A stretch of 34,538 nt of DNA, taken from contig JAMDDD010000040.1 in NCBI GenBank assembly GCA_023489275.1, positions 1-34,538 on the forward strand. Reading direction: 5' to 3'. A model generated the notes under the pieces. That model was not told the origin of the DNA and did not search any database. It worked only from the letters and a program-made list of their open reading frames with translations. Below are positions 1,432 to 34,538 of the stretch, piece after piece; position 1 is the first letter of the stretch; each line of letters starts with the position of its first letter. A program made the position numbers and the translations under genes. This DNA comes from Actinomycetota bacterium. GTDB taxonomy: Bacteria; Actinomycetota; Thermoleophilia; BMS3ABIN01.

Positions 1432-1730
1432 ATGGGTCAGCCTGGATTTTTCGATCTTGACGAACGCTATCAGTTCTTAGGCAAGTGCAGCGATTCGCTG
1501 GAAGTACTGGCCAAGGAAATCCCTGGGAGAGCTTCCGCTGTCCGATAAAAAAGGCGCTGGGAAAGCCCCGCAAATCGAGGGCCGGCGGAAAAGCTTTCGA
1601 CCACGTGATAATGTTCAAAATCGTAGTGCTTGAGTGCCTCTACAATCTCTCCGATCAGTAGATGGGGTTTCAGATCAGGGACCGTCTCTCCTTCATGCGC
1701 TTCCTGGGCCGGGACTGGCCATCCTGGATT
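1432..1730 (+). pseudogene. IS5-type transposase, N-terminal remnant
   Basis: The ATG at 1432 starts a frame opening M-G-Q-P-G-F-F-D-L-D, the usual beginning of IS5/IS1182-group transposases. A one-base frameshift occurs just after K-E-I-P (about 1520). The next frame continues with W-E-S-F-R, A-F-D-H-V-I-M-F-K and L-Y-N-L-S-D-Q, reaches an in-frame TAG where the family normally reads on, and resumes with F-Q-I-R-D-R-L-S-F-M-R-F-L-G. The DDE catalytic domain is absent. The remnant therefore has a frameshift, a stop and a missing C-terminal two thirds, and is certainly inactive. No terminal inverted repeats could be found. Confidence 0.8.
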
Positions 1731-1830
1731 CCTTATTGGGCAACAAATACGCATGGAAATCCGGGGAGTTATCTCGTTGTGCAGAACGATGGCAACGTTG
1801 TGATTTATGGGTACAGTGGAGAAAGAGATG
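1731..1830 (+). pseudogene. Bulb-type mannose-binding lectin fragment
   Basis: Directly after the transposase remnant, and in the same frame, the translation reads Y-W-A-T-N-T, then G-N-P-G-S-Y-L-V-V-Q-N-D-G-N-V-V-I-Y. This is one repeat of the bulb lectin (B_lectin) fold, including its Q-N-D-G-N-x-V-x-Y sugar-binding motif. Nothing else of a lectin is present: the piece is about 30 residues and ends before the dGTPase begins. I read it as a scrap captured by rearrangement. It is not a domain of the dGTPase. Confidence 0.6.
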
Positions 1831-1868
1831 GTGTTCTCGACCGCCTAGCTGTCCGGTACCGGGAGAAT

Positions 1869-11294: not shown

Positions 11295-11337
11295 GCTTCT
11301 CCTTCACTAAATGTTAATCCGATTCGCTCGGGCACCT

Positions 11338-11400
11338 TGTCATTTTGAGCGAAGCGAAGAATCCCCAAGATCCTTCGGGGCTTCACCCTCAGGATGACAA
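11338..11400. repeat. Palindromic dispersed repeat, copy 1 (between res and mod)
   Basis: Read on the minus strand this begins TGTCATCCTGAG and contains GAAGGATC, then GGGATTCTTCGC, ending in AAAATGACA. It resembles a widespread intergenic palindromic element whose outer arms TGTCAT...ATGACA pair with each other. A second, more diverged copy lies at 15321-15420. The restriction gene's stop codon (11389-11391) lies inside its outer arm, so the element inserted at, or replaced, the end of that gene. Confidence 0.7.
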
Positions 11401-14400: not shown

Positions 14401-14454
14401 GGGGTACTCGTAGGGAGAATTAATGATCGGCTGTTTGAAGAAGCGGTCTTCCAT
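11389..14454 (-). CDS. Restriction endonuclease, DEAH helicase-nuclease (BPTD_3080-like, 1021 aa)
   Basis: This is the cleavage subunit of a type III-like restriction system. The N-terminus (F-F-K-Q-P-I-I-N-S-P-Y-E-Y-P, then H-W-E-L-D-E-Q-G-Q-P) matches what I recall of the BPTD_3080 restriction family. Superfamily 2 helicase motifs are in order: A-T-G-A-G-K-T-T (184-191), N-D-E-A-H-H near residue 320, L-S-A-T-P-F-F, T-E-G-W-D, and E-Q-V-I-G-R-A-L-R-R. The C-terminus has a PD-(D/E)xK nuclease core: P-D-F-I-L-L, then V-E-I-K-G-Y. Unlike the usual type III order, it lies upstream of its methylase. The last residues (L-S-S) and the stop codon come from the palindromic repeat. An AAAGGAG lies 13 bases before ATG 14454, rather far. 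Confidence 0.88.
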   Translation of the reverse strand: MEDRFFKQPIINSPYEYPSKHWELDEQGQPTQKIINTRRSAEFVTPIPKPRKRNSASGQQQEQAHKQQQIVYDEGKGLSTETQQYDPTSIINALRRHVDKWRALPDPNTWHVTPETARLLQHWRHHQFSGYRPFFCQVEAVETAIWLTEVAPKTGKSGKTFLDYLANANSAANPDLSRLALKLATGAGKTTVMAMLIAWQTINAVRRPSSKNFTRGFLIVTPGITIRDRLRVLMPNDPDSYYASRELVPTDMLSDLERAKIVITNYHTFKLRERVELSKGGRSLLRGRGGPLNTLETEGQMLQRAMPDLMGLRNIMVLNDEAHHCYRERPEPEEDLKGDEKKEAERNNEAARLWISGLETVNRKLGITRIFDLSATPFFLRGSGYAEGTLFPWTMSDFSLMDAIECGIVKLPRVPVADNIPGEDMPKFRNLWEHIGKKMPKKGRGQAKTLDPLSIPVELQTALEALYGHYEKTYQLWQESGIHVPPCFIIVCNNTSTSKLVYDYVSGFKRPNEDGSTTFENGRLKLFRNFNESGDPIPRPPTLLIDSEQLESGDALDRSFRSVAADEIERYRREIIERTGDRQQADNITDQDLLREVMNTVGKENRLGGSIRCVVSVSMLTEGWDARTVTHVLGVRAFSTQLLCEQVIGRALRRQSYELNEDGKFDVEYADVLGVPFDFTAKPVIAPPQPPRETVQVKAMSPERDHLEIRFPRVEGYRVELPAERLSAEFNADSVLRLSPDLVGPSITRNAGIIGEGVELSLEHLEDLRRSTLLYNLTKRLLLTKWRDPGEEPKLYLFGQLKAITSKWLDSCLVCTGGTYPAQLMYQELADMAVSRITDGITRSLAGARPVKAVLDPYNPTGSTLHVNFTTSRSSRWETDPHRCHINWAILDSDWEAEFCRVAEAHPAVKAYVKNFNLDFAVPYRYGSTTRSYWPDFILLVDDGHGENDLLHLIVEIKGYRGEDAKDKKSTMDTYWVPGVNNLKTYGRWDFAEFTDVFEIEAEFDKLVESAIAKNEAFLSS

Positions 14455-14693: not shown

Positions 14694-14861
14694 TCAGTGA
14701 TTCGCAGACCTCGGCACTGCAGCTGTTACTTTCACCTTTGCGTTTTGCAGCCCCTGGTGCTGGTAATCGGAGCCGGAGCCTAGCAGGACGCCGGTAAACA
14801 GTAAGTCTTTCTTGCCGTCGCGGCGGACACGGTATTTTGTGCTATTTGTGGTATTGTCCAT
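14694..14861 (-). CDS. Small hypothetical protein (55 aa)
   Basis: A longer frame runs through the tRNA gene, but the credible part begins at ATG 14861, where AAAAGAAGG just upstream could act as a Shine-Dalgarno. The peptide has Y-R-V-R-R-D-G-K-K-D-L-L-F-T-G-V-L-L-G-S-G-S-D, a basic strand-turn-strand pattern, and an Asn/Gln-rich second half. It resembles small actinobacterial proteins that begin in a similar way and continue for another 20-30 residues, so it might be cut short; this is from memory and weak. It lies downstream of tRNA-Phe on the same strand. No function is suggested. Confidence 0.4.
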   Translation of the reverse strand: MDNTTNSTKYRVRRDGKKDLLFTGVLLGSGSDYQHQGLQNAKVKVTAAVPRSANH

Positions 14862-15004
14862 GGCCTTCTTTTCCCTCGAAATTTGCGTGGTATGTGGGGA
14901 ATAGTGCGGGGAAAAGAGGAAAGCCTGTTCCTGACAAAGCGATAATGCAATGATAAATAGCGGTTTTAGCAGAGGAAAACGGTAGGCTATGCCGGAAATA
15001 AAGC

Positions 15005-15080
15005 TGGTGGCGAGGCCCGGAATTGAACCGGGGACGCCAGGATTTTCAGTCCTGCGCTCTACCAACTGAGCTACCTCGCC
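15005..15080 (-). tRNA. tRNA-Phe (anticodon GAA)
   Basis: The reverse strand folds as a full cloverleaf. The acceptor stem is GGCGAGG paired with CCTCGCC. The D arm holds AGTTGGTAGA. The anticodon stem CAGGA/TCCTG encloses the loop CTGAAAA, giving anticodon GAA. The T stem CCCGG/CCGGG encloses TTCAATT. The discriminator base is A, and the 3' CCA is encoded. The 3' end points towards the accessory region at lower coordinates, the usual direction for island insertion at a tRNA gene, but I found no second copy of its 3' end in the window. Confidence 0.97.
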
Positions 15081-15130
15081 GTACCAAACAAGGCTTGCAG
15101 CACGTTTTTCGGGCAAGCCCGCGCAGGCGC

Positions 15131-15159
15131 ATTTTAGCTGTTTGCGAAAATAAGTGCAA
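15131..15159 (-). promoter_or_regulatory. Candidate promoter for tRNA-Phe
   Basis: On the minus strand a -35-like TTGCAC (15154-15159) and a -10-like TAAAAT (15131-15136) are separated by exactly 17 bases, about 50 bases before the tRNA 5' end. The -10 matches the consensus at five of six positions; the -35 only at the first three. Confidence 0.4.
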
Positions 15160-15320
15160 TTTGCGGATCCTGGCCGGCTTTTTCGCGCTTTTTTATATCG
15201 GCGAAGCGGAACCGGCATGCTTGCGCCGCCCGATTTGTACTGCTAGTATCAATATTGTTAGGGGTACATCAGGAACTTGCCGGCAAAAATAACTGATCAT
15301 CCTGCTAAACTCAGAAGCGC

Positions 15321-21598: not shown

Positions 21599-23068
21599 TC
21601 AGCTTCCCAGAATCTTCGCCACCGCGTCCTGAGCCGCGGTTAGCACCGGACCGGGCAGAATGCCCATAACGACAACGACGGCCGTGGCCAGTCCCAGGCC
21701 CAGGGTGAGGTCCCAGGAGCGCTTGCCGGTTGGCTCCATCGCCGCCGCCGTCTCAGCCTCCGGCTCGCGCATGTACATGTAGACAATCACGCGCAGGTAG
21801 TAAAAAGCGGAGACGACGCTGAAGAGCACTCCTACCACGGCCAGCCACGCCAGACCGGCGTCCACTACGGCCGCGAAGAGGTAGAACTTTGCCAGGAAAC
21901 CCGCCGTGGGAGGGATCCCCGCCAGCGAAAACATAAATACGGTCATGACACCCGCGGCGCCGGGGTAACGGCGTCCAAGGCCCGCCATTTCATCCAGGCT
22001 ATCGCCGAATTTGCCAGAATTTGCCAGAAACACCAGCACGCCAAAGGCTCCCATATTCATGGCCGCGTAGGCGGCAAGATAAAACAGGATTGAAGAATCG
22101 CCAAATGAGTTGATGTTCTCGCCCATGGCAACCACCGCCAGCAATAAATAGCCGACGTGAGCGATGCTGGAGAAAGCGAGCATCCGCTTGAGATCCCGTT
22201 GTAAAAGCGCCATGGTGGCGCCGGTCAGCATGGTCGCAATCGCCACGGCGATCAAAAGCGGCGCCCACCGGGCGTGTTCGGAGCCGAGGATAATCGTGAA
22301 GAATTTAATGATGACCGCAAACGCGCCGATCTTGGGCCCGACAGAGAGGAAGGCGGCGACCGGGGTAGGCGCTCCCTGATAAACGTCCGGAGCCCAGCTG
22401 TGGAACGGCGCCGCCGCCACCTTGAAGGCGAAGCCGCCGATAAGGAGGACGATGGCGATCACTATCACATGCCCGTCGACCGGCCCGATCCGGATGGCGG
22501 TTCCGATCTCTTCATAATTGGTGCTGCCGCTGACCCCGTACAGCAGGGCCATCCCGAAAAGGACAATGCCGGAAGCAAAAGAGCCGGTGAGAAAGTACTT
22601 CAGCGACGCCTCGATGGAGCGGCTGTTCCGGCGGAAAAAGCCCGCCAGCACGTAGCTGGCGAGAGACATCAGCTCCAGACCAACAAAAAACGTAACCAGG
22701 TCAATCGATTCGGCCATCACCATCAGTCCCACCGTGGCCAGCAGGATCAGCGCGTAATAATCGCCGAGAAGCCTGCCCTTGAGTTCCAGATGCTGCTCCG
22801 AGAGAAGCATCGCCAGCACCGCCACCGCCAGCAGCAGCAGCTTGAAAAATACAGTGAATTTGTCGAGGGCGATGCCATGGGAAAAGGTGGTAAACTGCTC
22901 CCCGCGCGACAGCCAGGTGGAGACGGCCGCCGTAGCGCAGGCGAGAATTCCCAGCCAGCTGAAACCGCGCCGCTCCTTCCGGGGCACCCATGGATCGATG
23001 AGCATCATCAGGAGCGCCGTGGCGATTAGCATCAGCTCCGGAACTATGGCGACAACATCATGCTGCAT
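21599..23068 (-). CDS. nuoN: NADH-quinone oxidoreductase subunit N
   Basis: NuoN is one of the three antiporter-like, proton-pumping membrane subunits of complex I. The protein has 489 residues and about 14 hydrophobic helices, which is the normal size. The antiporter signature around the broken helix is clear: W-A-P-D-V-Y-Q-G-A-P-T-P-V-A-A-F-L-S-V-G-P-K, with the conserved Lys. A short Gly/Ala-rich helix closes the chain. Its ATG is the base directly after the nuoM stop codon, so it is translationally coupled. It is the last gene of the operon, and I see no T-tailed terminator after it. Confidence 0.96.
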   Translation of the reverse strand: MQHDVVAIVPELMLIATALLMMLIDPWVPRKERRGFSWLGILACATAAVSTWLSRGEQFTTFSHGIALDKFTVFFKLLLLAVAVLAMLLSEQHLELKGRLLGDYYALILLATVGLMVMAESIDLVTFFVGLELMSLASYVLAGFFRRNSRSIEASLKYFLTGSFASGIVLFGMALLYGVSGSTNYEEIGTAIRIGPVDGHVIVIAIVLLIGGFAFKVAAAPFHSWAPDVYQGAPTPVAAFLSVGPKIGAFAVIIKFFTIILGSEHARWAPLLIAVAIATMLTGATMALLQRDLKRMLAFSSIAHVGYLLLAVVAMGENINSFGDSSILFYLAAYAAMNMGAFGVLVFLANSGKFGDSLDEMAGLGRRYPGAAGVMTVFMFSLAGIPPTAGFLAKFYLFAAVVDAGLAWLAVVGVLFSVVSAFYYLRVIVYMYMREPEAETAAAMEPTGKRSWDLTLGLGLATAVVVVMGILPGPVLTAAQDAVAKILGS

Positions 23069-24634
23069 CTACAATCTTCCTCCCAGGGCAGCCAGAAAAC
23101 GGGTGAGAAAGTTGCCGTGCTGGGCCATATACGGCGCCATCTGGTGGACCAGACGGGTGACCGAGGGGTTGATGATATTAAGGAACGTGGCCGGATACAC
23201 CCCAACCCAGACCGCCAGCGCCCCCAGCGGCACCAGAGCGCTGATCTCCCGCAGGTTTAGATCCGAGAGTTTAAACCACTTTTCATCGCGGGTTTCGGTG
23301 AACATGGTGCGCAGGTACATCCAGAGAAGATACGCCGCCGCCAGGATGATGCCGCCAGCCGCGATCACCGCCATCGCCTTGTTATAGCTAAACAGGCCCA
23401 GCAGGCTGAGGAACTCCCCCACGAAACCGGAGAGACCGGGAAGGCCCAGAGACGCCAGCGTGAAGAAAAGCAGGAACGAAGCCAGCACCGGGAACGGCGA
23501 CGCCAGCCCGCCCATGGCGCTGATCTCACGCGTATGCAGGCGCTCGTAGGCAAAGCCAACCAGGAGGAACAGAGATCCTGTTAGCAGTCCGTGGCTGAAC
23601 ATCACCAGCACGCCACCCTCGACGCCGATAATATTGAGGGCAAAGATGCCGCCGGTGACAAAGCCCATGTGGCTGACGCTGGAGTAGGCCACCAGCTTCT
23701 TCAAATCCTTTTGCACCAGCGACAGCAAGGCGCCGTAGATGATGGCAATGATTGACAGGATGAGGATGTAGGGGACGGCGGCCGCCGCCGCGTCCGGGAA
23801 CAGGGGAATGCAGAAGCGGATGATGCCGTAGCCGCCCATCTTCAGTAGTACCCCCGCCAGAATGACGCTGCCGGCGGTGGGCGCCTCCACGTGGGCGTCC
23901 GGCAGCCAGGTATGCACCGGCCACATTGGCACCTTGATGGCGAAAGCGATGAAGAAGGCCAGAAAGGCCGCCAGCTGTACCGGGAACGAGAACACGGCGT
24001 TTTGCAGCTGGTCCAGATCAAAAACGGGCGCCGCGAAGTGGTTGGGCCGCGCCAGATAGGCGATGGCGACGATGGCTACCAGCATCAGGACGCTGCCGGC
24101 CATCGTGAAGAGGAAAAACTTCAGCGCCGCATAGATGCGCCGGGGGCCACCCCAGACGCCGATGATGAAATACATCGGGATCAGCATCAGCTCCCAGAAA
24201 ACATAGAAGAGGAGCAGGTCGCGGGCGCAGAAAGTGCCGATCATGCCGGTTTCCAGGAAGAGGAACGCAGCAAAGAAACTCAGCTCGCGGTCCTTGATGT
24301 AATTCCAGGAAGCAGGGATGATCACCAGTGACAGCAGCGTCGTGAGCAGGATCAGCAAGACACTGATCCCGTCGACTCCCATGTGATAGCTGGAACCGAG
24401 CCGCGGGATCCAGTTGACTTTCTCGATGAACTGGAACGACGCGGTGTTCTGGTTGAATTTAAATACCATCACCAGTGACAGCACGAATACCGCCGCCGTT
24501 GTCGCCAGCGCCGTATACTTGTACAGCAACGGCCGGCCCCGCATGAGCACCAGCATGACCAGCGCCCCCAGCGTGGGGAGGAAGGTCATTACCGTCAATA
24601 TCGGAAAGCCTATCTGGGATTGGAAAGAAAACAT
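23069..24634 (-). CDS. nuoM: NADH-quinone oxidoreductase subunit M
   Basis: This 521-residue antiporter-like subunit has about 14 membrane helices. It carries the conserved Glu in F-W-E-L-M-L-I-P-M-Y and the segment W-P-V-H-T-W-L-P-D-A-H-V-E-A-P-T-A-G-S-V-I-L-A-G with its Lys in L-L-K-M-G-G-Y-G. It pumps protons as the middle module of the membrane arm. The start ATG 24634 is preceded almost immediately by 7-base repeats, so instead of a normal Shine-Dalgarno the region reads repeated CGGAACT. Only that GGA could pair with 16S rRNA. Confidence 0.96.
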   Translation of the reverse strand: MFSFQSQIGFPILTVMTFLPTLGALVMLVLMRGRPLLYKYTALATTAAVFVLSLVMVFKFNQNTASFQFIEKVNWIPRLGSSYHMGVDGISVLLILLTTLLSLVIIPASWNYIKDRELSFFAAFLFLETGMIGTFCARDLLLFYVFWELMLIPMYFIIGVWGGPRRIYAALKFFLFTMAGSVLMLVAIVAIAYLARPNHFAAPVFDLDQLQNAVFSFPVQLAAFLAFFIAFAIKVPMWPVHTWLPDAHVEAPTAGSVILAGVLLKMGGYGIIRFCIPLFPDAAAAAVPYILILSIIAIIYGALLSLVQKDLKKLVAYSSVSHMGFVTGGIFALNIIGVEGGVLVMFSHGLLTGSLFLLVGFAYERLHTREISAMGGLASPFPVLASFLLFFTLASLGLPGLSGFVGEFLSLLGLFSYNKAMAVIAAGGIILAAAYLLWMYLRTMFTETRDEKWFKLSDLNLREISALVPLGALAVWVGVYPATFLNIINPSVTRLVHQMAPYMAQHGNFLTRFLAALGGRL

Positions 24635-24635
24635 C

Positions 24636-24823
24636 GTTCCGAGTTCAGAGTTCCGAGTTCCGAGTTATTTTCACTGGGCTGTATTTTCTTCCTTTGAATT
24701 TCGTGTTCTTTAAGTAAGTCAAAAATCCACCGGTTAGATTGCTCGTATCGTTTGCAAACATGTTCATCTTGTCAAACTCTTTCTTCACCGCAACACTCCT
24801 CGCTCGGAACTCAGAACTAAACT
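24636..24823. repeat. Heptamer repeat element, nuoL-nuoM junction
   Basis: Four units of the type GTTCCGA (24636-24663) stand in exact 7-base phase. An inverted arm of GGAACTC / AGAACTA type lies at about 24804-24823, with about 135 bases of AT-rich spacer between. The first arm covers the ribosome-binding region of nuoM; the second ends at the nuoL stop codon (24825). The spacer holds no gene. Confidence 0.75.
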
Positions 24824-24824
24824 G

Positions 24825-26711
24825 TTACAATGTCAAAAAAACGTACACGATCATTAGCACCAGCAATCCCAGCATCATCGTAAACAGATAACCCTGAATC
24901 TTTCCCGCCTGGATCGGCCGGAGGGCGCGGCCGGCGCCTACCGCCAGCCAGCCGGCGCCATTGACTGCCCCGTCAATGACTCCGGCGTCAACGATCCGCC
25001 AGAGCCAACCGGAGAAGCGGCGCAGCGGATTGATAATTACCGCGAAGTAGATCTCATCAATGTAATATTTGTTGAGCAGCAACGTGTAAAAGCGGCCGGA
25101 GCGCTTGCACGCCTTTGCCGGCAGCCAGGGGCAGCGCAGGTAAAAATGCCAGGCCAGCAAGATGCCGGCAATGCCCACGGCAGCCGAAAAGGCCATCAGG
25201 ACCCCCGATAACAAGCCGAATTCATGCGCCGGCGCATGAATGGCGGCGGCAAAGACACCGTGGAGAAAGTGATCGATGTAACCGCTCCCCGGCGGAACGC
25301 CGAGCAGCAGGCCGGCCCCCACGGTGGGCACCGCCAGGACGATCAGCGGCACCGTCATCACCCACGGTGACTCGTGCGCATGGGAGAAAAGCCTGGCGTC
25401 TCGCGGTTCGTTAAAGAACGTGAGAAAGATCATCCGGAAAGAATAAAAAGCCGTCAGGAACACGGTAATCACAGCGACGATCCAGAAGTAATAGTAGCCC
25501 CCATCGAACGCGCCCGCGAGCACGGCGTCCTTGCTGAAAAAGCCGGAGAGGCCCGGGAATCCGGAAAGCGCCAGGGCGCCGATGAGGAAGGTCCAGTAGG
25601 TAATCTTGATCTTCTTCCTTAAGCCGCCCATCTTGAGCATGTCCTGCTCGCCGCCCATGGCGTGGATCACCGATCCGGAACAGAGGAAGAGCAGGCCCTT
25701 GAAGAAGCCGTGCGCCAGCAAGTGAAACATGGCCGCGGTCCAGGCGCCCACTCCCAGCGCCATGAACATGTAACCCAGCTGACTGACGGTCGAATATGCC
25801 AGCACCTTCTTGATGTCCGTCTGGACCATGGCGATGCTGGCGGCGAAGATAGCGGTAAAGGTTCCGATGATGGCCACCACCAGCATGGCGGTATGCGAGT
25901 GGGCAAAAAGGGGATTGGAACGGGCAACCATGTAGACGCCGGCGTTGACCATGGTGGCGGCATGGATCAGGGAGCTGACCGGGGTCGGGCCCTCCATGGC
26001 ATCCGGCAGCCAGACGTGCAGGGGGAACTGGGCGCTCTTGCCTACGGCGCCGGTAAACAGCAGCAGGCAGATAGCGGTGGCCATGCCGCCGCTTAAGCCA
26101 CCGGCCGCGGCAAAGACGCCGCTGTAGCTCAGCGTTCCCAGGGTAACGAAAATGAGCATGATCCCCAGGCTGAAGCCGAAGTCGCCCACGCGGTTGACAA
26201 GGAAAGCCTTCATGCCGGCGTTGGAGGCGCTCACCTTGGGGAACCAGAAAGCGATCAGCAGGTAAGAGCAAAGGCCCACGGCTTCCCAGAAAACGTAGAG
26301 CAGGAGGTAGTTGTTGGCCAGCACCAGCATGAACATCGAGAACATGAACAGGTTGATATAGGCGAAGAAGCGGTAGTAACCCTTGTCCCCGTGCATGTAT
26401 CCGATCGAGTAGACATGGACCATGAAGCCGACGGTGGCGACTACCAGGAGCATGATGGCGGTCAGCTCGTCAACCAGAAAGCCGATATCGACACTGAAAT
26501 GCCCGACGGCGATCCACGAGTAAATCTGCCAGGAGAGGGTATGGCCCCGCTCTACCTGAATAAAAACATACATTGAAAGCAGCCAGCTGATGGCCACGGC
26601 GCCCACGGAAGCGAAATGGCTTTTCTCCTTCAGGTAGCGCCGTCCCAGCAGTCCCGTAAACACAAACGAGGCCAGCGGCAGCAGCGGTATCAGCAGCACA
26701 ACTGCTTTCAA
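24825..26711 (-). CDS. nuoL: NADH-quinone oxidoreductase subunit L
   Basis: This is the distal antiporter-like subunit of 628 residues, with about 16 membrane helices including the long lateral helix at the C-terminus. It shows W-E-A-V-G-L-C-S-Y-L-L-I-A-F-W, the H-V-W-L-P-D-A-M-E-G-P-T-P-V-S-S-L-I-H-A-A-T-M-V-family signature, and the conserved Lys in K-K-V-L-A-Y-S-T-V-S-Q-L-G-Y. The start is a TTG (26711): the ATG five bases upstream is followed by a stop in its frame, and AAGGATGAGA lies upstream. It begins just after the nuoK stop. Confidence 0.96.
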   Translation of the reverse strand: MKAVVLLIPLLPLASFVFTGLLGRRYLKEKSHFASVGAVAISWLLSMYVFIQVERGHTLSWQIYSWIAVGHFSVDIGFLVDELTAIMLLVVATVGFMVHVYSIGYMHGDKGYYRFFAYINLFMFSMFMLVLANNYLLLYVFWEAVGLCSYLLIAFWFPKVSASNAGMKAFLVNRVGDFGFSLGIMLIFVTLGTLSYSGVFAAAGGLSGGMATAICLLLFTGAVGKSAQFPLHVWLPDAMEGPTPVSSLIHAATMVNAGVYMVARSNPLFAHSHTAMLVVAIIGTFTAIFAASIAMVQTDIKKVLAYSTVSQLGYMFMALGVGAWTAAMFHLLAHGFFKGLLFLCSGSVIHAMGGEQDMLKMGGLRKKIKITYWTFLIGALALSGFPGLSGFFSKDAVLAGAFDGGYYYFWIVAVITVFLTAFYSFRMIFLTFFNEPRDARLFSHAHESPWVMTVPLIVLAVPTVGAGLLLGVPPGSGYIDHFLHGVFAAAIHAPAHEFGLLSGVLMAFSAAVGIAGILLAWHFYLRCPWLPAKACKRSGRFYTLLLNKYYIDEIYFAVIINPLRRFSGWLWRIVDAGVIDGAVNGAGWLAVGAGRALRPIQAGKIQGYLFTMMLGLLVLMIVYVFLTL

Positions 26712-26718
26712 ATCATTC

Positions 26719-27027
26719 TCATCCTTTTAAATCGTCAAGTTCGTCAACATCAAGCCTTTCCCGCAGCCGGTACATGGCGATGCCGATTGCCAGCCCCACA
26801 GCCACCTCCGCCGCCGCTACCGCCAGCACGATGAACACGAACACTTCGCCGCGGCCGGGACCGATGGCCGAGTAGTTGGAAAAAGCCACCAGGGCGATGT
26901 TGACCGCGTTCAGCATCAGCTCCAGGCACATCACCACGAGAATTATGTTGCGGCGCGCCACCACGCCCCAGGCGCCGACGGCAAACAGGGCCGCGGCCAG
27001 CGCGAGATAATACTGGAGCGGCGTCAC
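26719..27027 (-). CDS. nuoK: NADH-quinone oxidoreductase subunit K
   Basis: This small membrane subunit has 102 residues and three helices. The two functionally important glutamates are present: one in [10 protein letters not shown] and one in A-A-A-E-V-A-V-G-L. They form part of the proton path between the quinone site and the antiporter subunits. The start is GTG, overlapping the nuoJ stop as GTGA, so translation is coupled. Confidence 0.96.
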
Positions 27028-27524
27028 CGGCGCTTCTCTCTCTTGGCCAGCAGGACAGCGCCGGCGATGGCAACCAGCAGCACCAGCGACACCAACTCAA
27101 AGGGAAGCGCGTACTGATTAAACAGGAGGCGGGAGAGCTGCGCCGTTGTCGGATTTTGCGGCTTGGGCGCGTAATTATACTTGCCTCTGCCCAGCACCAC
27201 TCCCAGCACCGCCGCGAGAATCACCGCCGCCGGCAGCGCCGCCCACGCCTGGCGGTGGAAAAACAGCCGGAGTTCTCCGCTTCGCTGCTTGGTGAGCATG
27301 ATCGCAAACAGGATCAGGATCGAAATCGCGCCGACGTAGATGAGCAGTTGCGCCGCCGCCAGCAGCTCGGCGTTCAGCGTAATAAATACAATCGCCACGC
27401 CGGTGAAGCTGGCGATCATGGCGATGGCGCTGTAAATCAGGTTGCGGAAGCTGACCATCAGCACCGCGGGAATAATCACGACGGCAGCGACGATATAAAA
27501 CAAAGGTGTGGAGAAGCCGTTCAT
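27024..27524 (-). CDS. nuoJ: NADH-quinone oxidoreductase subunit J
   Basis: This membrane subunit of 166 residues has five helices, including the [10 protein letters not shown] and [19 protein letters not shown] segments typical of NuoJ. A longer upstream frame is not used: ATG 27524 overlaps the stop codon of the NuoG-like gene as ATGA and gives the family's normal N-terminus. The basic tail (K-R-E-K-R-R) is cytoplasmic. Confidence 0.95.
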
Positions 27525-29965
27525 TGCTTTTTCTGCTCCCGTTTCAGAGCGGTTTCGCCTCCATGCACATCCTTCTGGTACTGCTTGGCGGCGTGATCTT
27601 CGTTCTCCCTGGGGGCGTGGTCTTGCTGGCATGACCCGGCAGGGTTTAAATCCGGGCCCCGGGCCATGTCAAGCAGATTGCAGTGCAGCTCCTCATGGCT
27701 GGCGGTGGCCAGCTCAAACGCGGGCGTGATCGCCAGCGATTCCACCGGGCAGACCTCGACGCAATCGGCGCAAAATATACACCGGGAAGTGTCCAGATGC
27801 CAGTTGACAAGTTGCCGATCTTTCATAAACAGCGCTCCCGTCGGGCAGAGAGTGGCGCAGCGGCCGCAAGATACGCAATCAGTCTCGTTGAGCGACCGGT
27901 CGAACGGCGGCGTGACGATAGCGCCGGCGCCACGGCCGGTAAAATCATACACCCCGGAGCCGGTTACGTACTTGCAGACCCGGATGCAGCGGGCGCAGTC
28001 AATGCACCGGTTGGGGTCGCGCTGGATAAAATCATGGGTGGTGTCGCGACCGTACAGATGCTGGGCTCCGGCAAACCGGTTCCCTTCCTCCTTCATCAGT
28101 CCGGCGCCAATGCTGTAGCGCCGGAGTTTGCAGCTCTCCACGCCCTCGCAGATGCACTGCAGGCAGCGGCGGCTCTCGTCTCCGGCTGCCGCTTCCGAAA
28201 ATCCCCGGTCAATCTCGAGGAAGTTGCCTTCGCGCTCCAGGACCGGCAGCTGCGGCGTCATCTGCCGCGCTTCTTTTTTGTCGCGGTAAGCGGGAATGGA
28301 AATCATCGGCGGTTTTTCCAGCTCGGGCAGAGCGGTCTCGTAAGCGGACATGTCCTCACCCCGGAGAAAGGCGTCCATGGCCCAGGCAGCTTTCTTGGCG
28401 CCGCCAATGGCAGCCACCACGGTGAGAGCCCCGCTGACGGCGTCGCCAGCGGCGAACACCTGCGGGCGCCCTGTCTGATATGTCCTGGGATTGGTCTCGA
28501 TCGTCTGCCAGCGGGAGCAAGTGACACCGCCCTCTTCCGGAAAAAGGGTGCATTCTTCCTCTTTTTTAACGTCGATATACGTCAGCTTCGGCATCTGGCC
28601 GATGGCCGGGATAATCGTGTCCAACTCCACCAGGTACTCGGAGCCGGGAACCGGCTGCGGCCGCCTCCGGCCGCTGGCGTCAGGCTCCCCCAGCTCCATC
28701 TTCTGGCAGATCATACCGGCGACACGGCCGTCCTTGCCCTCCACCCGGACCGGCGCCACCAGGAAGGAAAACAGGACCCCTTCCTCCATGGCGTCCTTGA
28801 CTTCCAGCTCATGCGCCGGCATCTCCTTCTGGGTGCGGCGGTAGAAGACCGTCACCTCGCTGGCGCCCAGCCGTTTGGAAACGCGGGCGGCGTCCATGGC
28901 AGAAAAGCCGCCGCCAATGACCGCGACCTTGTCGCCGACGTCGGGCGGGTTCCCGAGCGCCACCTCGCGGAGAAAATCAACCACAGTAATGACGCCTTCA
29001 AGATCCTCTCCTTCAACGCGCATGGCGCGGCTCGCGTGAGCGCCGATGCCGAGAAAGACGGCAGCAAACCCCATCTCGCCCAGCAGGTCATCGAGAGAGA
29101 AATCCGGCCCCAGCGCCATGCCCGTTTTCAGTTCCACTCCCATCGCCCAGAGAGGCTCGAGCTCCGCGTTTAAAACCCTTTTGGGAAGACGGTATTCAGG
29201 GATGCCGTAGCGGAGCATGCCGCCGGTATCGGGCAGCGCCTCGAAGATCGTGACGCTATGGCCTTTAAGCGCCAGGTAATAGGCGTTGGCCAGCCCTGCC
29301 GGGCCGGCGCCGACCACGGCCACGCGCTTGCCGGTGGCGGCGGCAGGCTGCTCAGGCTTAAATCCCTTTTCAATCGCCACATCCCCGACAAAGCGGTGTG
29401 AGAGCCGGATTGAAATCGGCTCCTCCACTTCCTCACGGCGGCAGACACCCTCGCAAGGGTGCGGGCAGACGCGGCCGACAATCGCCGGGAAGGGCAGGTT
29501 CTCTTTCAACACCCGCTGTGACTCATCATAGTCCCCGTCCGCGATCAGGCCGATGAAAGCGGGAATATCAACATTAGTGGGGCAGCCATACTTGCACGGC
29601 GGCAGGCAGTAGGCGTTATGGTCGGAAAGCAGCAGCTCCAGATATGTCTTCCGCAGCCGGAGCAGCTCCTCGCTATCGGTGGTGACGACCATGCCTTCCC
29701 GGACATAAGTGGCGCAGGAAGGCACGGGACGCTCCTCGCCCTCGACCTCGACGACACAGAGGCGGCAGCCCCCGAAGGGCTCCAGGCCTTTGATGACGCA
29801 AAGATAAGGGATCTTGATCTTGACCGACTTGGCCGCTTCCAGGATGGTATCTCCCTCATGGGCCATGACCTCGCGGCCGTTTATGCTCAGCTTTACCGGC
29901 GCGCCGGTGCCCGAAATCCGGACGGGAGGCAAGCAATTTACTTTTTGATTGAGTCCGTCACTCAT
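27521..29965 (-). CDS. NuoG-like/GltD-like Fe-S flavoprotein fused to the C-terminal half of NuoI (814 aa)
   Basis: Domains in order: a [2Fe-2S] ferredoxin (C56, C67, C70, C84); H116 with C120, C124, C128 like the NuoG His-Cys3 site; a GltD-type flavin module with FAD motif G-A-G-P-A-G (219-224) and NAD(P) motif G-G-G-F-S-A-M-D (351-358); a Cys group at 601-612; and two 4Fe-4S motifs as in NuoG (C654-664, C697-707). A last motif, S-R-C-I-F-C-A-D-C-V-E-V-C-P (727-740), is followed by I-T-P-A-F-E-L, exactly the second half of NuoI. The molybdopterin-type domain of NuoG is absent. It should pass electrons between NAD(P)H or another donor and complex I. I start at ATG 29965 because the longer frame translates the heptamer repeat. 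Its stop overlaps nuoJ (ATGA). Confidence 0.88.
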   Translation of the reverse strand: MSDGLNQKVNCLPPVRISGTGAPVKLSINGREVMAHEGDTILEAAKSVKIKIPYLCVIKGLEPFGGCRLCVVEVEGEERPVPSCATYVREGMVVTTDSEELLRLRKTYLELLLSDHNAYCLPPCKYGCPTNVDIPAFIGLIADGDYDESQRVLKENLPFPAIVGRVCPHPCEGVCRREEVEEPISIRLSHRFVGDVAIEKGFKPEQPAAATGKRVAVVGAGPAGLANAYYLALKGHSVTIFEALPDTGGMLRYGIPEYRLPKRVLNAELEPLWAMGVELKTGMALGPDFSLDDLLGEMGFAAVFLGIGAHASRAMRVEGEDLEGVITVVDFLREVALGNPPDVGDKVAVIGGGFSAMDAARVSKRLGASEVTVFYRRTQKEMPAHELEVKDAMEEGVLFSFLVAPVRVEGKDGRVAGMICQKMELGEPDASGRRRPQPVPGSEYLVELDTIIPAIGQMPKLTYIDVKKEEECTLFPEEGGVTCSRWQTIETNPRTYQTGRPQVFAAGDAVSGALTVVAAIGGAKKAAWAMDAFLRGEDMSAYETALPELEKPPMISIPAYRDKKEARQMTPQLPVLEREGNFLEIDRGFSEAAAGDESRRCLQCICEGVESCKLRRYSIGAGLMKEEGNRFAGAQHLYGRDTTHDFIQRDPNRCIDCARCIRVCKYVTGSGVYDFTGRGAGAIVTPPFDRSLNETDCVSCGRCATLCPTGALFMKDRQLVNWHLDTSRCIFCADCVEVCPVESLAITPAFELATASHEELHCNLLDMARGPDLNPAGSCQQDHAPRENEDHAAKQYQKDVHGGETALKREQKKQ

Positions 29966-29974
29966 GCCATATTG

Positions 29975-30053
29975 GTTTCTGGTTTCGAGTTTCCAGTTTC
30001 TGGTTTCGATGAATGATGGTTTAACAAGAAACTGGCAACCGGCAACGCGAAAC
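29975..30053. repeat. Heptamer repeat element, nuoF-nuoG junction
   Basis: Five units of GTTTCNN run in perfect 7-base phase at 29975-30009. After a 10-base centre, five units of the inverse type (NNGNAAC) run in perfect phase at about 30019-30053. The two arms can pair into an imperfect hairpin of about 35 bp. The element fills nearly the whole gap between the NuoF stop and the NuoG-like start. Confidence 0.85.
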
Positions 30054-30056
30054 TTT

Positions 30057-31856
30057 TCATTTACCACATCTCCCTGCCGCGCATTTGCCTTCAACTGCGT
30101 GCGCCGTAAATTCTTCCTTGAAGAACTTTAGTCCGGTCAGCAGCGGCCGGACGGAGGTGCGGCCGAGGCCGCAGAGCGCGCCCGCCTGGATATCCTCCGC
30201 CAGCGTCCGGGCCAGCTCGAGGTCGCCGGCGCCGGCACCGCGGCAGATTCTGTCAACGACGTCCAGCAGGCGCCAGGTCCCCAGGCGGCAGGGAACGCAC
30301 TTGCCGCACGACTGCCTGGTGAAAAAGGCCAGGCACTGCCGGGCGACGTCCACCACGCATTCATCCGCCCCCAGCACCGTTATCGTTCCGGAGCTTAAGT
30401 CGCCACCGGCCTCGCTTAAAGAGTCATAGTCGAGCGGGATGTCAAACAATCCGGGCGAGAGGAAACCGCCGCCGGCGGAGCCCACCAGCGCCGCCTTGGG
30501 CTCTCCTTTAAAGCCGCCGCCAACTTCAGCCACCAGCTTTTTCAGGCTGGTGCTCATGGATGCCTCATAAACGCCAGGCTTGCCAACCGCGCCCTGCAGC
30601 GTAAACAGCTTGGTCCCCGGCGCATTCGGCGCGCCGATCTGACTGAAGGCACGGGCCCCGTTCTTGATGATCCACGGCACCGCCGCCAGCGTTTCGACAT
30701 TCTCGACGACGGTGGGCATGCCGCGCAGGCCTTTTTCCGCCGGGTAAGGAGGCCGGACGCTGGGCATCGGCCGCTTTCCTTCCAGGGTGGCGATGACCGC
30801 CGTTTCCTCACCGCCCATAAAGGTCTTGGGCACCTCCACGACTTCAAGGCTGAAAGCAAAGCCGCCGGGCAGCTCCGCTCCCAGGAGATCCCGGTCCTCA
30901 GCCTGGTCTATGGCGCCACGGAGGCGCTCGACGGCGAGGCGGTTGTCTTTGCTGATATAGATGTATCCCTGACTGGCGCCGATGGCGTAGCCGGCCACGA
31001 TCATCCCCTCGATGACGCTGTGCGGATTTTCCTCCAGCAGGATCCGGTCTTTAAAGGAACCCGGATCGCCTTCCTCGGCATTGCAGATGATGTACTTTTG
31101 CGGCGCAAGCGTCTCAGCCGCCACCTGCCACTTGCGGCCGGTGGGAAAACCGGAGCCGCTGCGGCCGCGCAGGCCACTTTGCGTGATCTCCTCCACCACT
31201 CCCGGCGGTGGCGTTTCGGTGAGGATCCGGGTAGCGGCGCTGTAACCGCCGGCGCCGGCATAAGCATCGATGCTTTCCGGATCGACGCCGCCGTGATTTG
31301 CCAGCAGGATCTGCGGGCAATCCTCCATTGTCGCGCGCTCCGCAGGGGCCGGCGGCGCCTCACCCGGCCGGGGCGCGCCCGGCCCCAGCTGATCATAATA
31401 AGTGGCAATGGAAAATACCTGGCTCACCCAGGCGCCGTTTTTTAGCGCCAGCCCCTCCAGCAGTTGCTCGGTAAGCTCACCGGCGTCGATCAGAGAACTG
31501 GCGATGCAGCCCCGGGCGGGCGCTTCCGCCGCGCCCTGCGGCCAGGGAGCGATGCCTACCGGCTTCTCTCCCCTGTTCAGGAAAGACAGCATCGGACCGG
31601 CGCCGGCGTCAAAACGCCAGACCTTATCCGCCCGCTTTTCATCATAAATAATCTTGATGGCAACCGCCGGACATACCTGCTCGCAAAAAGTGCAGGCGAT
31701 GCAGCGGGGCGTCGCCGCGTCGTCCTTCAGCCGCAGGCGGATGAGGCCGCGGCTGCGCTCAGGCAGTTTCCGCCGCTCTTCGGGATACTGCACCGTCACT
31801 TTCTTGCGAAGCAGGTGCGCCGCCGTTATTTCCAGGCCTTTTAAGAGACCGATCAT
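30057..31856 (-). CDS. nuoF: NuoF fused to the N-terminal half of NuoI (599 aa)
   Basis: Residues 1-85 are the front of NuoI: an amphipathic helix, T-V-Q-Y-P-E-E-R-R-K-L-P-E-R-S-R-G, and one 4Fe-4S motif (C52, C55, C58, C62). The chain then leaves the NuoI pattern just before the second motif. Residues about 118-160 resemble the helical start of NuoE (V-F-S-I-A-T-Y-Y) without its [2Fe-2S] cysteines. From about 180 it is NuoF: G-L-R-G-R-S-G-S-G-F-P-T-G-R-K-W for NADH, C-N-A-E-E-G-D-P-G-S-F-K-D-R for FMN, and C517, C520, C523, C562 for cluster N3. It should oxidise NADH and, through its NuoI half, dock on NuoH. A normal NuoF has about 430 residues. ATG 31856 has only a weak GGAA upstream. Confidence 0.9.
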   Translation of the reverse strand: MIGLLKGLEITAAHLLRKKVTVQYPEERRKLPERSRGLIRLRLKDDAATPRCIACTFCEQVCPAVAIKIIYDEKRADKVWRFDAGAGPMLSFLNRGEKPVGIAPWPQGAAEAPARGCIASSLIDAGELTEQLLEGLALKNGAWVSQVFSIATYYDQLGPGAPRPGEAPPAPAERATMEDCPQILLANHGGVDPESIDAYAGAGGYSAATRILTETPPPGVVEEITQSGLRGRSGSGFPTGRKWQVAAETLAPQKYIICNAEEGDPGSFKDRILLEENPHSVIEGMIVAGYAIGASQGYIYISKDNRLAVERLRGAIDQAEDRDLLGAELPGGFAFSLEVVEVPKTFMGGEETAVIATLEGKRPMPSVRPPYPAEKGLRGMPTVVENVETLAAVPWIIKNGARAFSQIGAPNAPGTKLFTLQGAVGKPGVYEASMSTSLKKLVAEVGGGFKGEPKAALVGSAGGGFLSPGLFDIPLDYDSLSEAGGDLSSGTITVLGADECVVDVARQCLAFFTRQSCGKCVPCRLGTWRLLDVVDRICRGAGAGDLELARTLAEDIQAGALCGLGRTSVRPLLTGLKFFKEEFTAHAVEGKCAAGRCGK

Positions 31857-31862
31857 CTATTG

Positions 31863-31936
31863 GTTCCAAGTTTAAAAAGCCCAAAATGACTTTGCCGGGA
31901 GTCAACTTTGAACTTTGACCTTTGAACTTTGAACTT
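31863..31936. repeat. Heptamer repeat element, nuoH-nuoF junction
   Basis: Two units of type GTTCCAA/GTTTAAA (31863-31876), a 25-base centre, then five units of CAACTTTG type in exact 7-base phase (31902-31936). The long arm abuts the nuoH stop codon (31936-31938). Orientation of the arms is inverted, as in the neighbouring elements. Confidence 0.75.
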
Positions 31937-33024
31937 CATGCTGCCGCCCTTCTCATTCGCTTACGAATCAGCGATTTTCTGAGCACCGGCTGGAAAAGAA
32001 AGATGAGTGCGATGGTTGACACCCAGCTAAAAGCCGCCACCGGCGGCAGGAAGCTGTTTGGCAGCAGGATGATAAGCAGTCCCGTGACGCCCAGGTTAAC
32101 CAGACTGAGAGGGATCAGCACCTTCCAGGCAAAATTCATCAGCTGGTCAATCTGCAGCCGGGGGAAAGTCGAGAAGAACCAGATCACGACAAAGACCAGC
32201 ACCAGCACTTTCAGAATCAGCCAGCCGGGGCTGCCGGCGAACGGTCCCCGCCAGCCGCCGAGGAAAAGAGTGGCGCCGGTAAGCGACCAGATGGCGGCGT
32301 TGCCCCATTCGATCAGGCCGTAAAAGAAACCCCAGCGCATGCCGCCGTACTCTGTCATATAGCCTCCAACCAGCTCTGACTCGGCTTCCGGCAAATCAAA
32401 GGGGGTGCGGTTCAGCTCGGCCATGCCGGCGATGATAAATACCACGAACGCCAGCGGCTGCACGGCGATAAACCAGACCCGGCCCTGGGCTCCGACGACG
32501 TTATTCAGGCTGAGCGACCCCACCAGCATGGCGATGATGATGATGTTAAGGATCATCGGGACTTCATAGGAGACCATCTGGGCGACCGAACGGAGGCCGC
32601 CCAGCAGCGAGTACTTGTTATGCGAGGCCCAGCCGGCCAGCAGGATACCCAAAACCGTGAATGAGCCAAAGGCGACTACGTAAACCAGGCCCACGTTCAG
32701 GTTGGCGATCGTAAAACCCTTGCTAAACGGGATAACGCTGACGGCGAGGACCGGCGTGATGAACGCGATGATTGGCGCCAGCATAAACAGGAACCGGTCA
32801 CTGCGATTGGGGGTAATGTCCTCCTTGAGCATCAGCTTGAGAAAATCAGCCATCGGCTGCAAGAGGCCGGCCGGGCCGACCCGGTTGGGGCCGAGCCGGT
32901 CGCTCATGAATCCGGAGATGCGGCGGATAGCAAAGGGAAAAACGATGGCACTCAAGGCCGGCACCGCCACGGCGATCACCACGGCAGCGATCAGATGCTC
33001 AAAGAATGACAGGTTCCAACTCAC
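31936..33024 (-). CDS. nuoH: NADH-quinone oxidoreductase subunit H
   Basis: NuoH joins the peripheral and membrane arms and forms part of the quinone chamber. The protein has 362 residues and eight to nine membrane helices. It carries G-P-N-R-V-G-P-A-G-L-L-Q-P near the N-terminus and the acidic loop A-E-L-N-R-T-P-F-D-L-P-E-A-E-S-E-L-V. The start is GTG 33024, overlapping the nuoD stop as GTGA. It ends in a basic tail. Downstream it meets the NuoI/NuoF fusion where a plain nuoI would normally be. Confidence 0.96.
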   Translation of the reverse strand: MSWNLSFFEHLIAAVVIAVAVPALSAIVFPFAIRRISGFMSDRLGPNRVGPAGLLQPMADFLKLMLKEDITPNRSDRFLFMLAPIIAFITPVLAVSVIPFSKGFTIANLNVGLVYVVAFGSFTVLGILLAGWASHNKYSLLGGLRSVAQMVSYEVPMILNIIIIAMLVGSLSLNNVVGAQGRVWFIAVQPLAFVVFIIAGMAELNRTPFDLPEAESELVGGYMTEYGGMRWGFFYGLIEWGNAAIWSLTGATLFLGGWRGPFAGSPGWLILKVLVLVFVVIWFFSTFPRLQIDQLMNFAWKVLIPLSLVNLGVTGLLIILLPNSFLPPVAAFSWVSTIALIFLFQPVLRKSLIRKRMRRAAA

Positions 33025-34148
33025 CGGTCAACCGACCCCATGATCAGGTCGAGGCTGCCGGTGATGCCGACGACATCCGCCATTTTGTTGCCGGGGAGGA
33101 TTTTTGGCAGTGTCGAAATAGCCACGAAGCAGGAATCGCGCAGCTTCAGCCGGTAAGGCCTTAAGGAACCGTCGGAGACCAGATAGTTGGACCATTCGCC
33201 GCGCCCTGTCTCCACCGCGGCGAAGCTCTCGCCGGCCGGCGGCCGGAGCATCGGTGGAATCCGCATGTTCACCGGTCCTCCCGGCAGAGCATCCAGGGCC
33301 TGCCCGATGATCCGCACGGACTGGCGCAGCTCCTCAATCCGGCATTTGTAGCGGTCGAAGCTGTCACCGTTCAGGCCGGTAGGAATGTCAAAATCAAGCT
33401 CGGGATAAACTGAATACGGGTTATGGCGCCTTAAGTCAACCGGCACGCCCGAGGCGCGCAGATTCGGGCCTGAAAGGCCGAAGTCGAGCGCCTGCTCCGG
33501 CGAGATCACGCCCATCCCCAGCGACCGCGCCAGAAAGATCTCGTTGCCGGTGATCAGCTGCTCGTACTCGTCAATCATCGCCGGAAACCGTTTTAAAAAT
33601 TTGCGGCACTGCTCTTCGAAGCCGTCCGGAAGGTCGTAGCGGACGCCGCCGACGCGGGCAAAGTTGTACATCATCCGCTGCCCGGTCAGCAGCTCCAGCA
33701 GGTCCAGAACGTCTTCGCGGTCGCGGAACGTCCACAGCACCGGCGTTACCGCGCCCAGGTTCAGCAGGTAGTCGCCGATGGCCATGTGATGGCTGATGAT
33801 GCGGTTGAGCTCGCCAGCGATGACCCGCAGATACTCCGCCCGGGGAGGCGGCTCGATCTCCATCAGATCCTCGATGGCGCGGACGTAAGCCCATTCCATG
33901 AAGAAACCGGCCAGGTAGTCCAGCCGCGACAGCATCGAGAAAAACTGCATATAAGTGCGGTTCTCTGCCAGCTTCTCGAAGCCGCGGTGCAGGTATCCGA
34001 GCTGTGGATCGACGCTGACGATTAACTCGCCATCCAGGTGCAGCACCAGCCGCAGAACCCCGTGTGTGGAAGGGTGTTGCGGTCCCATGTTGAGAACCAT
34101 TTCTTCCAGGCGCAAATCCCTGTCTTTTTCTAAGGCTGTTTCTGCCAT
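33021..34148 (-). CDS. nuoD: NADH-quinone oxidoreductase subunit D
   Basis: NuoD is the 49-kDa-type subunit that forms the quinone pocket next to cluster N2. The protein has 375 residues with the typical start N-M-G-P-Q-H-P-S-T-H-G-V-L-R-L (quinone-site His), G-Y-L-H-R-G-F-E-K-L, and the R-L-D-Y motif. The C-terminus lacks the hydrogenase cysteines and ends V-G-I-T-G-S-L-D-L-I-M-G-S-V-D-R, as in complex I. ATG 34148 is preceded by GAGGA. It is separated from nuoC by a heptamer element and overlaps nuoH by four bases. Confidence 0.96.
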   Translation of the reverse strand: MAETALEKDRDLRLEEMVLNMGPQHPSTHGVLRLVLHLDGELIVSVDPQLGYLHRGFEKLAENRTYMQFFSMLSRLDYLAGFFMEWAYVRAIEDLMEIEPPPRAEYLRVIAGELNRIISHHMAIGDYLLNLGAVTPVLWTFRDREDVLDLLELLTGQRMMYNFARVGGVRYDLPDGFEEQCRKFLKRFPAMIDEYEQLITGNEIFLARSLGMGVISPEQALDFGLSGPNLRASGVPVDLRRHNPYSVYPELDFDIPTGLNGDSFDRYKCRIEELRQSVRIIGQALDALPGGPVNMRIPPMLRPPAGESFAAVETGRGEWSNYLVSDGSLRPYRLKLRDSCFVAISTLPKILPGNKMADVVGITGSLDLIMGSVDR

Positions 34149-34170: not shown

Positions 34171-34258
34171 GTTTTTGTTTCAAGTTGCCAGTTTCCCGTT
34201 TTTAGTTACGGGCTGCGTTTCTCGCAACTTGGAAATCAGCAACTCGAAACTAGAAACT
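34171..34258. repeat. Heptamer repeat element, nuoC-nuoD junction
   Basis: Five units GTTTCAA, GTTGCCA, GTTTCCC, GTTTTTA, GTTACGG stand in exact 7-base phase at 34177-34211. An inverted arm (GCAACTT, GGAAATCA, GCAACT, CGAAACT, AGAAACT) lies at 34224-34258, with one 8-base step. The nuoC stop codon (34250-34252) lies within the second arm. Confidence 0.8.
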
Positions 34259-34538
34259 TGTTTTGCCTTCGCCGGGCAGCCGCTTGGCGGCGCCAACGCC
34301 CTCAAAACTCCATTCTTCGCGGCGGACACGGTGCGGGCGGGCGTCCTTCCGCAACGGGAAGACGCCGTCTTCGCCGCGGGTAAGGATGCGGCGCAGATCA
34401 GGATGCCCTTCGTAAACGATGCCGAGCAGATCGAAAGTTTCCCGCTCGTGCCACTCCGCTGTACTCCAGATGCGCGACAGCGTTGGCACAACCGGACTTT
34501 CCGGGTCCAGGCCGGCGCGCAGCTCGGCGGCAATCCCG
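34250..34538 (-). CDS. nuoC: NADH-quinone oxidoreductase subunit C, C-terminal part
   Basis: Only the last 95 or so codons are in the window; the 5' end lies beyond the right edge. The peptide holds the NuoC signature [18 protein letters not shown], followed by G-H-P-D-L-R-R-I-L and P-L-R-K-D. NuoC sits in the peripheral arm next to NuoD and NuoB. The final residues (K-T-S-F) and the stop codon are contributed by the heptamer element, so the C-terminus has been reshaped by the repeat. nuoA and nuoB are expected further to the right. Confidence 0.92.

Follow-up and report, generated by a model that had tools for sequence, protein, structure and literature searches.

We propose, with a probability of roughly 0.7, that a short helical segment between the NuoI-like and NuoF-like parts of a fused protein, IEF, is a remnant of NuoE, and that it belongs to a complex I whose NuoE-NuoF-NuoG input module, of the Stn/NfnABC (“Bfu”) type, lies inside nuoI, between its two [4Fe-4S] motifs. 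The window, by which we mean the whole stretch of 34,538 nucleotides that was analysed, is contig C25 of a 1.58-Mb genome that is 92% complete. The first-pass annotation of this DNA had picked out the NuoE-like segment; the split NuoI, with its second half on the NuoG-like protein, and the Bfu/Stn type of the module went unnoticed. The features concerned are these, in window positions:

30057..31856, minus strand: IEF fusion protein, 599 aa, NuoI N-half + NuoE remnant + NuoF (open frame)
31623..31856, minus strand: NuoI N-terminal half, residues 1-78, with cluster motif 1 (C52, C55, C58, C62) (NuoI HMM)
31509..31622, minus strand: IEF linker, residues 79-116, with the motif VW..DAG.GPML conserved in f1 (16-row alignment)
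31383..31508, minus strand: putative NuoE (BfuC/StnA) helical remnant, residues 117-158, matched core about 125-159, without the [2Fe-2S] thioredoxin half (profile-profile comparison, alignment, AF2)
30060..31316, minus strand: NuoF/BfuB core (FMN, N3/B1), residues 181-599, with a BfuB-like CAAGRC tail (Pfam, structure and NuoF comparison)
27521..30094, minus strand: NuoG-like ORF (G), BfuA/StnC type, likely start 29965 (residue 44) (f1 starts compared)
29672..29902, minus strand: [2Fe-2S] domain of G (PF13510)
28364..29608, minus strand: Fer4_20 + GltD-type FAD/NAD(P) domain of G (Pfam, NCBIfam, NfnA/StnC match)
27824..28030, minus strand: motifs A+B of G, HydA/Stn-type 2[4Fe-4S], spacing 33 (Pfam, homology, motif spacing)
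27650..27814, minus strand: NuoI C-terminal half at the C-end of G, cluster motif 2 (CIFCADCVEVCP) + NuoI-like tail (NuoI HMM)
31936..33024, minus strand: nuoH, directly upstream of IEF (homologous order in relatives)
33021..34148, minus strand: nuoD (operon map, NuoD tree)
34250..34537, minus strand: nuoC, truncated by the contig end (operon map)
27024..27632, minus strand: nuoJ, directly downstream of G (operon map)
21599..27027, minus strand: nuoK, nuoL, nuoM and nuoN (operon map)

Read along the minus strand, the gene order is C-D-H-[NuoI N-half..E..F]-[G..NuoI C-half]-J-K-L-M-N. In canonical complex I operons the genes E, F and G normally stand between D and H, as is seen at locus L201; that layout, with separate NuoE and NuoI, is not met by the window operon. 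Operon maps were drawn, each only to the contig limits, for 15 loci of the window's own family, f1 (window included), and for four loci of a second family, f3, one of which is cut within its NuoI-NuoE gene. Because the contig ends in nuoC, nuoA and nuoB of the window genome are not visible. Reading by eye, we found nuoA-nuoB-nuoC-nuoD upstream, without nuoE, in one f1 relative, and nuoA and nuoB upstream in one f3 locus as well. The earlier statement that no separate nuoE is present holds for the visible part of the operon but not for the genome: the search elsewhere that had been suggested finds an intact nuoE in a second, ordinary complex I operon (G000:C22). A nuoE further upstream, which would have refuted the NuoE reading, is missing from the f1 relative, but in the window genome that region lies beyond the contig end.

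The 5' end of the G open frame (29966-30094, minus strand) resembles an intergenic repeat (ETRNWKLETRN), which is not among the 20 repeat families listed by the repeat search. Elsewhere in the window, at 8475-14454 (minus strand), a type III methyltransferase (PADLOC MTase_III, 1428 bits) adjoins a helicase-like ORF of 1021 aa, which looks like the restriction partner of the methyltransferase and had no PADLOC match at 1e-10. A tRNA-Phe at 15005-15080 (minus strand) is overlapped by a mechanical ORF, 14694-15218, and positions 1662-2753 (plus strand) encode a dGTPase-like protein, about 100 N-terminal residues of this ORF being without a match.

The type of the input module is clearest from G. 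This protein matches NfnA (9bov_A) at 620 bits over residues 24-735 of 814 and StnC (8oh5_C) at 594 bits; the best classical NuoG chain among the matches listed reaches 79 bits, with its best stretch in the first ~110 residues. G of f3 gives a similar picture (645 and 567 bits, and at most 97 bits for classical NuoG among the matches listed). G meets the domain order of an StnC/NfnA-type BfuA ([2Fe-2S] + GltD + 2[4Fe-4S]). It carries three CxxCxxCxxxC motifs, here called A, B and C, with a spacing of 33 between A and B and of 22 between B and C in 18/18 proteins (L041, which is masked, was excluded from the G counts). Four f1 paralogs of G from other operons have motifs A and B and no C.

The NuoF part belongs to the same type. 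The IEF model is closest to the B subunits of NfnABC, StnABC and HydABC, with Thermus complex I no higher than rank 19. The f3 NuoF proteins, mostly 624-668 aa long, have a core flanked by a four-Cys thioredoxin-like pattern (N-TRX) on the N-terminal side and by two or more ferredoxin motifs on the C-terminal side (11/11 rows). By the same motif pattern neither is found in 15/15 f1 rows, whereas both are found in all the f3 rows. For the N-TRX this pattern is a crude one: 4/4 BfuB rows of a further family, f5, which have an N-extension of 155-157 aa, escaped it as well. Pfam likewise finds neither the N-TRX nor the C-terminal ferredoxin domain in the window IEF. A BfuB-like C-x4-C tail is present in 14/15 f1 NuoF rows. 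A BfuABC module within a nuo cluster is thus met in f3, and in f1 only in a stripped form. A BfuBC core with clusters C1 and B1-B5 is not met in f1, whose predicted proteins, by sequence, lack the NuoE thioredoxin domain (N1a/C1), the BfuB N-TRX (B2) and the BfuB C-terminal ferredoxin (other bifurcation clusters).

Some NuoF rows vary in other respects. At the third Cys of the N3 motif (C523 in the window IEF), L060 and L061 have Asp and L057 has Gly. The FMN loop of f1 IEF is also variable, and one f3 row, L143, likewise shows alteration. At L140:4455-9707 (f3, same contig as L067) BfuB and G lie in one 1750-aa open frame, perhaps a further fusion.

Are deletions enough to derive f1 from a Bfu complex like that of f3? 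The midpoint-rooted NuoD tree (59 rows) makes f1 and f3 sisters (99/97), and the G tree (30 rows) places them together (100/98); the fork in the G tree includes row L164_4, a duplicate of G010's own G gene, and the AU test there (p 2e-35) is void, as this mislabelled duplicate made the set under test a wrong one. We expected f1 NuoF to be sister to f3 NuoF as well, and this failed: the NuoF tree places f1 outside f3+f5 BfuB, and a single f1+f3 clade is rejected (p-AU 0.013, with three long rows, L143_3, L140_21 and L050_17, dropped). The f1 NuoF has therefore either evolved fast or been replaced. A NuoF of other source, or one swapped in later, fits this rejection and remains a possibility to keep in mind, albeit an unlikely one. 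The f1 NuoF branch is long, the NuoD and G trees unite the two families, NuoI is split at the same point in both, and the C-x4-C tail of f1 is BfuB-like, all of which speak against a swap.

We turn to NuoI. An HMM was built from 62 canonical NuoI (62 of 67 loci yielded one). Its positions 4-81 match the N-end of 8/8 tested IEF or NuoI-NuoE proteins at 61-77 bits (window IEF, 76.7 bits at positions 4-77), and it matches the C-end of 18/18 tested G proteins at 33-46 bits. In five of these G proteins the match covers only motif 2 (that is, motif C) and the NuoI tail, without motif B (33-37 bits); in the other 13 it extends over motif B too. Against TIGR01971 the window N-half alone scores 61-67 bits, and the two window halves joined score 121.1 bits, above the cut-off of 113.05. 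The controls, N-half + BfuB ferredoxin half and N-half + G's own motif B, reach 95.1 and 90.1 bits, and the genuine NuoI of the window genome 165 bits. The joined f3 halves, at 101.3 bits, stay below the cut-off. Among solved structures, NDUFS8 chains of complex I align with residues 4-125 of the 132-aa joined window piece. The canonical condition of both motifs in one chain is not met: motif 1, with all four Cys and the Pro kept in 12/12 rows, is on IEF, and motif 2 is on G. The sequences themselves establish that the two predicted pieces are complementary, the first motif opening IEF and the second motif with the tail closing G. A title- and abstract-level literature search, which mostly did not cover subscription papers, found no split NuoI. 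We also considered that motif C might be the FdhF-type motif found after motif B in StnC and discarded the idea, as motif C and its tail fit NuoI; the four f1 paralogs without motif C contradict it too.

The clusters of 2[4Fe-4S] ferredoxins are each bound by three Cys of one motif plus a single Cys of the second. Since motifs A and B are by homology the Stn/HydA dicluster, motif C and motif 1 of IEF are left over as the halves of NuoI, and by the shared-Cys rule each NuoI cluster would draw its ligands from two chains. We infer, then, that NuoI reassembles from both chains. AF2 gives pLDDT <50 for IEF 1-116, with the NuoF part modelled well, and <50 over residues 549-814 of 814 in G (18 rows), so that no model supports the rebuilt ferredoxin. 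Pairing of B with C within G is not excluded. The constant B-C distance is a possible ferredoxin spacing, and since it never varies and the NuoI HMM aligns across both motifs in most G proteins, B and C could form a NuoI-like dicluster by themselves, with the NuoI half of IEF serving only as a docking peptide. We think this improbable: A+B is an inherited dicluster, the pairing would leave motif A and the fully conserved motif 1 without partners, and canonical NuoI has a motif spacing of 29-35 (62/62), unlike the 22 of B-C.

For the segment itself, the best reading is that a helical linker is all that remains of NuoE and that the N1a-type cluster, which NuoE carries in canonical complex I, has been lost. 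Residues 118-160 of IEF (31376-31505) include LTEQLLEGLALKNGAWVSQVFSIATYYDQL. NCBIfam places NuoI over residues 3-78 and NuoF over residues 193-586; neither Pfam nor NCBIfam matches residues 100-180, and a solved-structure search with the segment matched no NuoE. In single hhalign comparisons, 15 f1 linkers (window residues 79-190) matched 39 canonical NuoE plus the genome's own NuoE at E 2e-4 (probability 47%), the same set with three f3 NuoE parts added at 1.6e-6 (90%), and the f3 parts alone at 6.7e-7 (92%). These matches span 31-34 columns, and always fall on the NuoE part just before the thioredoxin half. With plain HMMs of the same three sets, the window linker alone scores -0.4, 3.8 and 7.5 bits; the best of 3,000 shuffles gave 3.8, 3.4 and 3.5 bits (1,676, 1,686 and 2,021 of the 3,000, respectively, being reported by the HMM program). 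The window linker's single-sequence NuoE score is among the lowest. These weak scores mean that the window sequence alone is no proof of a NuoE origin.

The decisive point, in terms of predicted proteins, is f3, whose arrangement we take as the intermediate: a single 253-aa protein there carries this NuoI half and, behind it, a whole four-Cys NuoE (for L047, PF01257 scores 157.6 bits on the NuoE part and covers 4-144 of 145), and a HydB-type NuoF comes after it. The f1 stub is conserved across 16 rows, and in the six pairs compared it is, by dN/dS estimates from small counts, under purifying selection (0-0.19 vs 0.05-0.14 for the NuoI half). An ordinary linker with a chance likeness, NuoE having been lost outright, would fit the silence of Pfam, NCBIfam and the structure search and the low single-sequence scores. 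We give it little credence in view of the profile-profile match at the expected NuoE position, the full NuoE that f3 carries in that position, behind the matching NuoI half, and the conservation of the stub.

The original suggestion about this segment has accordingly fared well. Its likeness to the start of NuoE is borne out by the profile-profile match and the f3 protein, and the four-Cys thioredoxin-like half ([2Fe-2S], PF01257) is indeed absent from IEF, with none after the segment. That NuoE was reduced to a linker, removing N1a, gains support from the f3 intermediate, from ten f1 genomes without NuoE (below) and from the purifying selection. The other two checks proposed for it gave mixed answers: searches with one sequence gave little and comparison between profiles gave the NuoE match, and structure prediction returned three helices (118-124, 130-140 and 144-155) but at low pLDDT (48-64 over the block). 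At the start of the remnant, C117 (31506-31508) is kept as Cys in 16/16 f1 rows.

The arrangement is not peculiar to the window. IEF is full length in 17 of the 18 other f1 genomes; the exception, G009, also has no NuoD match at 1e-60. A NuoI-half/NuoE profile at 1e-22 (best 11 candidates per genome at most) hits at least 30 of 299 genomes of the class, at least 18 of them f1 and at least 12 f3, with no other family among the matches listed; in the phylum sample (best eight candidates) it hits at least 8 of 396 genomes, all f1 among the matches listed. The same arrangement occurs in metagenome-assembled genomes labelled Thermoleophilia, Actinomycetes or Gaiellales, and the group that bears it is uncultured. 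Two f3 genomes, G070 and G075, yielded only ordinary-type NuoD.

By Pfam cut-off in 31 genomes, NuoE is present in 8/19 f1 and 12/12 f3, and intact NuoI exceeds its cut-off in 7/19 and 5/12, respectively. Ten f1 genomes (G006, G007, G008, G010, G012 and G014-G018; listed completeness 69% to 100%, with G007 and G016 at 100%) have the fusion while both NuoE and intact NuoI fall below the cut-offs. Sub-cut-off NuoE matches over the helical part only occur in three f1 genomes (G007, G009 and G012), and that of G007 is a different protein from IEF. The intact NuoE on C22 makes it conceivable that the second complex I supplies N1a in trans; the ten fusion-bearing genomes without NuoE, though several are incomplete, make this very hard to credit. 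A pseudogene or assembly artefact can be set aside in spite of the metagenomic sources, given the purifying selection and the number of f1 and f3 genomes matched by the profile.

A NuoE helical stub (PF01257 10-63, below cut-off) fused to a degenerate NuoF also occurs at L162:2759-4168, beside ORFs reading like MetV/MetF, Nfn and FDH (gene names by reading). Transcripts of nuoABC have been reported from ACT_02, to judge by the name seemingly the source of L053 (B_ACT_02), and the accessible part of that paper (PMC9326234) does not mention IEF or G. Both proteins are known from sequence, with no expression or protein data.

A second case of nesting is found in f5. Its second operons (L193-L199) have C-D-[fusion] facing a divergent H-J-K-L-N; no M was matched, and no E, F or G was seen in the operon. 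In 4/4 fusions scanned (L194-L197) NuoI HMM positions 6-45 are followed by a GltD domain of ~500 aa and then by positions 52-134, as at L196:7965-9935, where the GltD flavoprotein domain sits in NuoI ahead of cluster motif 1; the L193 fusion is spread over two overlapping frames. As in f1 and f3, an input flavoprotein is nested in NuoI, and in the NuoD tree these operons, on a long branch, join f1+f3 (95/94), apart from the canonical complexes. Unlike f1 and f3, there is only GltD, inserted before motif 1, in a single chain. Because this GltD is distant in the tree, on long branches, from the GltD of G, an input module has probably been seated in NuoI on two occasions.

It is important to set this complex beside known ones. 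A complex I with a Bfu module is already published: in the accessible text of Schut et al. 2022 (PMC9304861), Nuo-Bfu is a complex I of 14 subunits, A-N, in which BfuABC (BfuB clades 38 and 39) replaces NuoEFG, found in Deferribacteres, Proteobacteria, Planctomycetes and Nitrospirae, and clusters B2-B5 are described as missing from non-bifurcating homologues. The words NuoI, fused and Actinobacteri- are absent from its main text. Like Nuo-Bfu of the Geobacter type, the complex described here has BfuABC in place of NuoEFG; unlike it, so far as that text goes, the module is inside nuoI, BfuA has GltD, and f1 is without the BfuB N-TRX and C-ferredoxin and the BfuC thioredoxin domain. With the transhydrogenases StnABC and NfnABC (PDB 8oh5, 9bov, 9n5u) it shares a BfuB-type NuoF, a NuoE-type subunit and, judging from the accessible part of PMC10482914, the domain order of G as far as motif B. 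Beyond that motif the transhydrogenases have an FdhF-like domain, whereas here G runs into the second half of NuoI and lies within a complex I operon. The core subunits and the NuoF fold are those of canonical 14-subunit complex I (e.g. Thermus, PDB 2fug), in which, however, NuoI is one chain and NuoG is without GltD. Finally, the order nuoABCDHIJKLMN of the 11-subunit complex I, with no EFG between D and H (PMC11238625, PMC5736913, as far as their accessible text goes), is similar, except that here a module is inserted within I.

By homology, IEF would take up the electrons of NADH at its FMN, and G would take up those of NADPH at its GltD FAD; according to the accessible part of PMC10482914, StnABC oxidizes NADPH at the GltD FAD and has NAD at FMN. 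Electrons from both would travel along the clusters of G and on by way of the split NuoI and NuoB to menaquinone, coupled to proton pumping, an activity likewise inferred from homology. The f3 complex may still bifurcate or confurcate with ferredoxin. The f1 complex should not, on the published rule that non-bifurcating homologues lack B2-B5. The NuoE helices kept in f1 may act as a docking linker or tether from NuoI to NuoF.

We are evenly divided over the wider history that this suggests, namely that a complex I without an N-module acquired a bifurcating transhydrogenase module by insertion into nuoI, independently of NuoEFG, with the NuoI ferredoxin shared by two chains, and that f1 later lost the bifurcation parts. 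A non-bifurcating complex I open to both NADH and NADPH, and without N1a, would then have originated for a second time. If true, the input module is threaded through its own docking subunit, and the genes would still show the join of module and complex, with the module lying inside NuoI. The f3 complexes, with full Bfu parts, and the f1 complexes, with parts lost, would form a natural series for asking which clusters bifurcation needs, and one that also bears on whether N1a matters in a working complex I.
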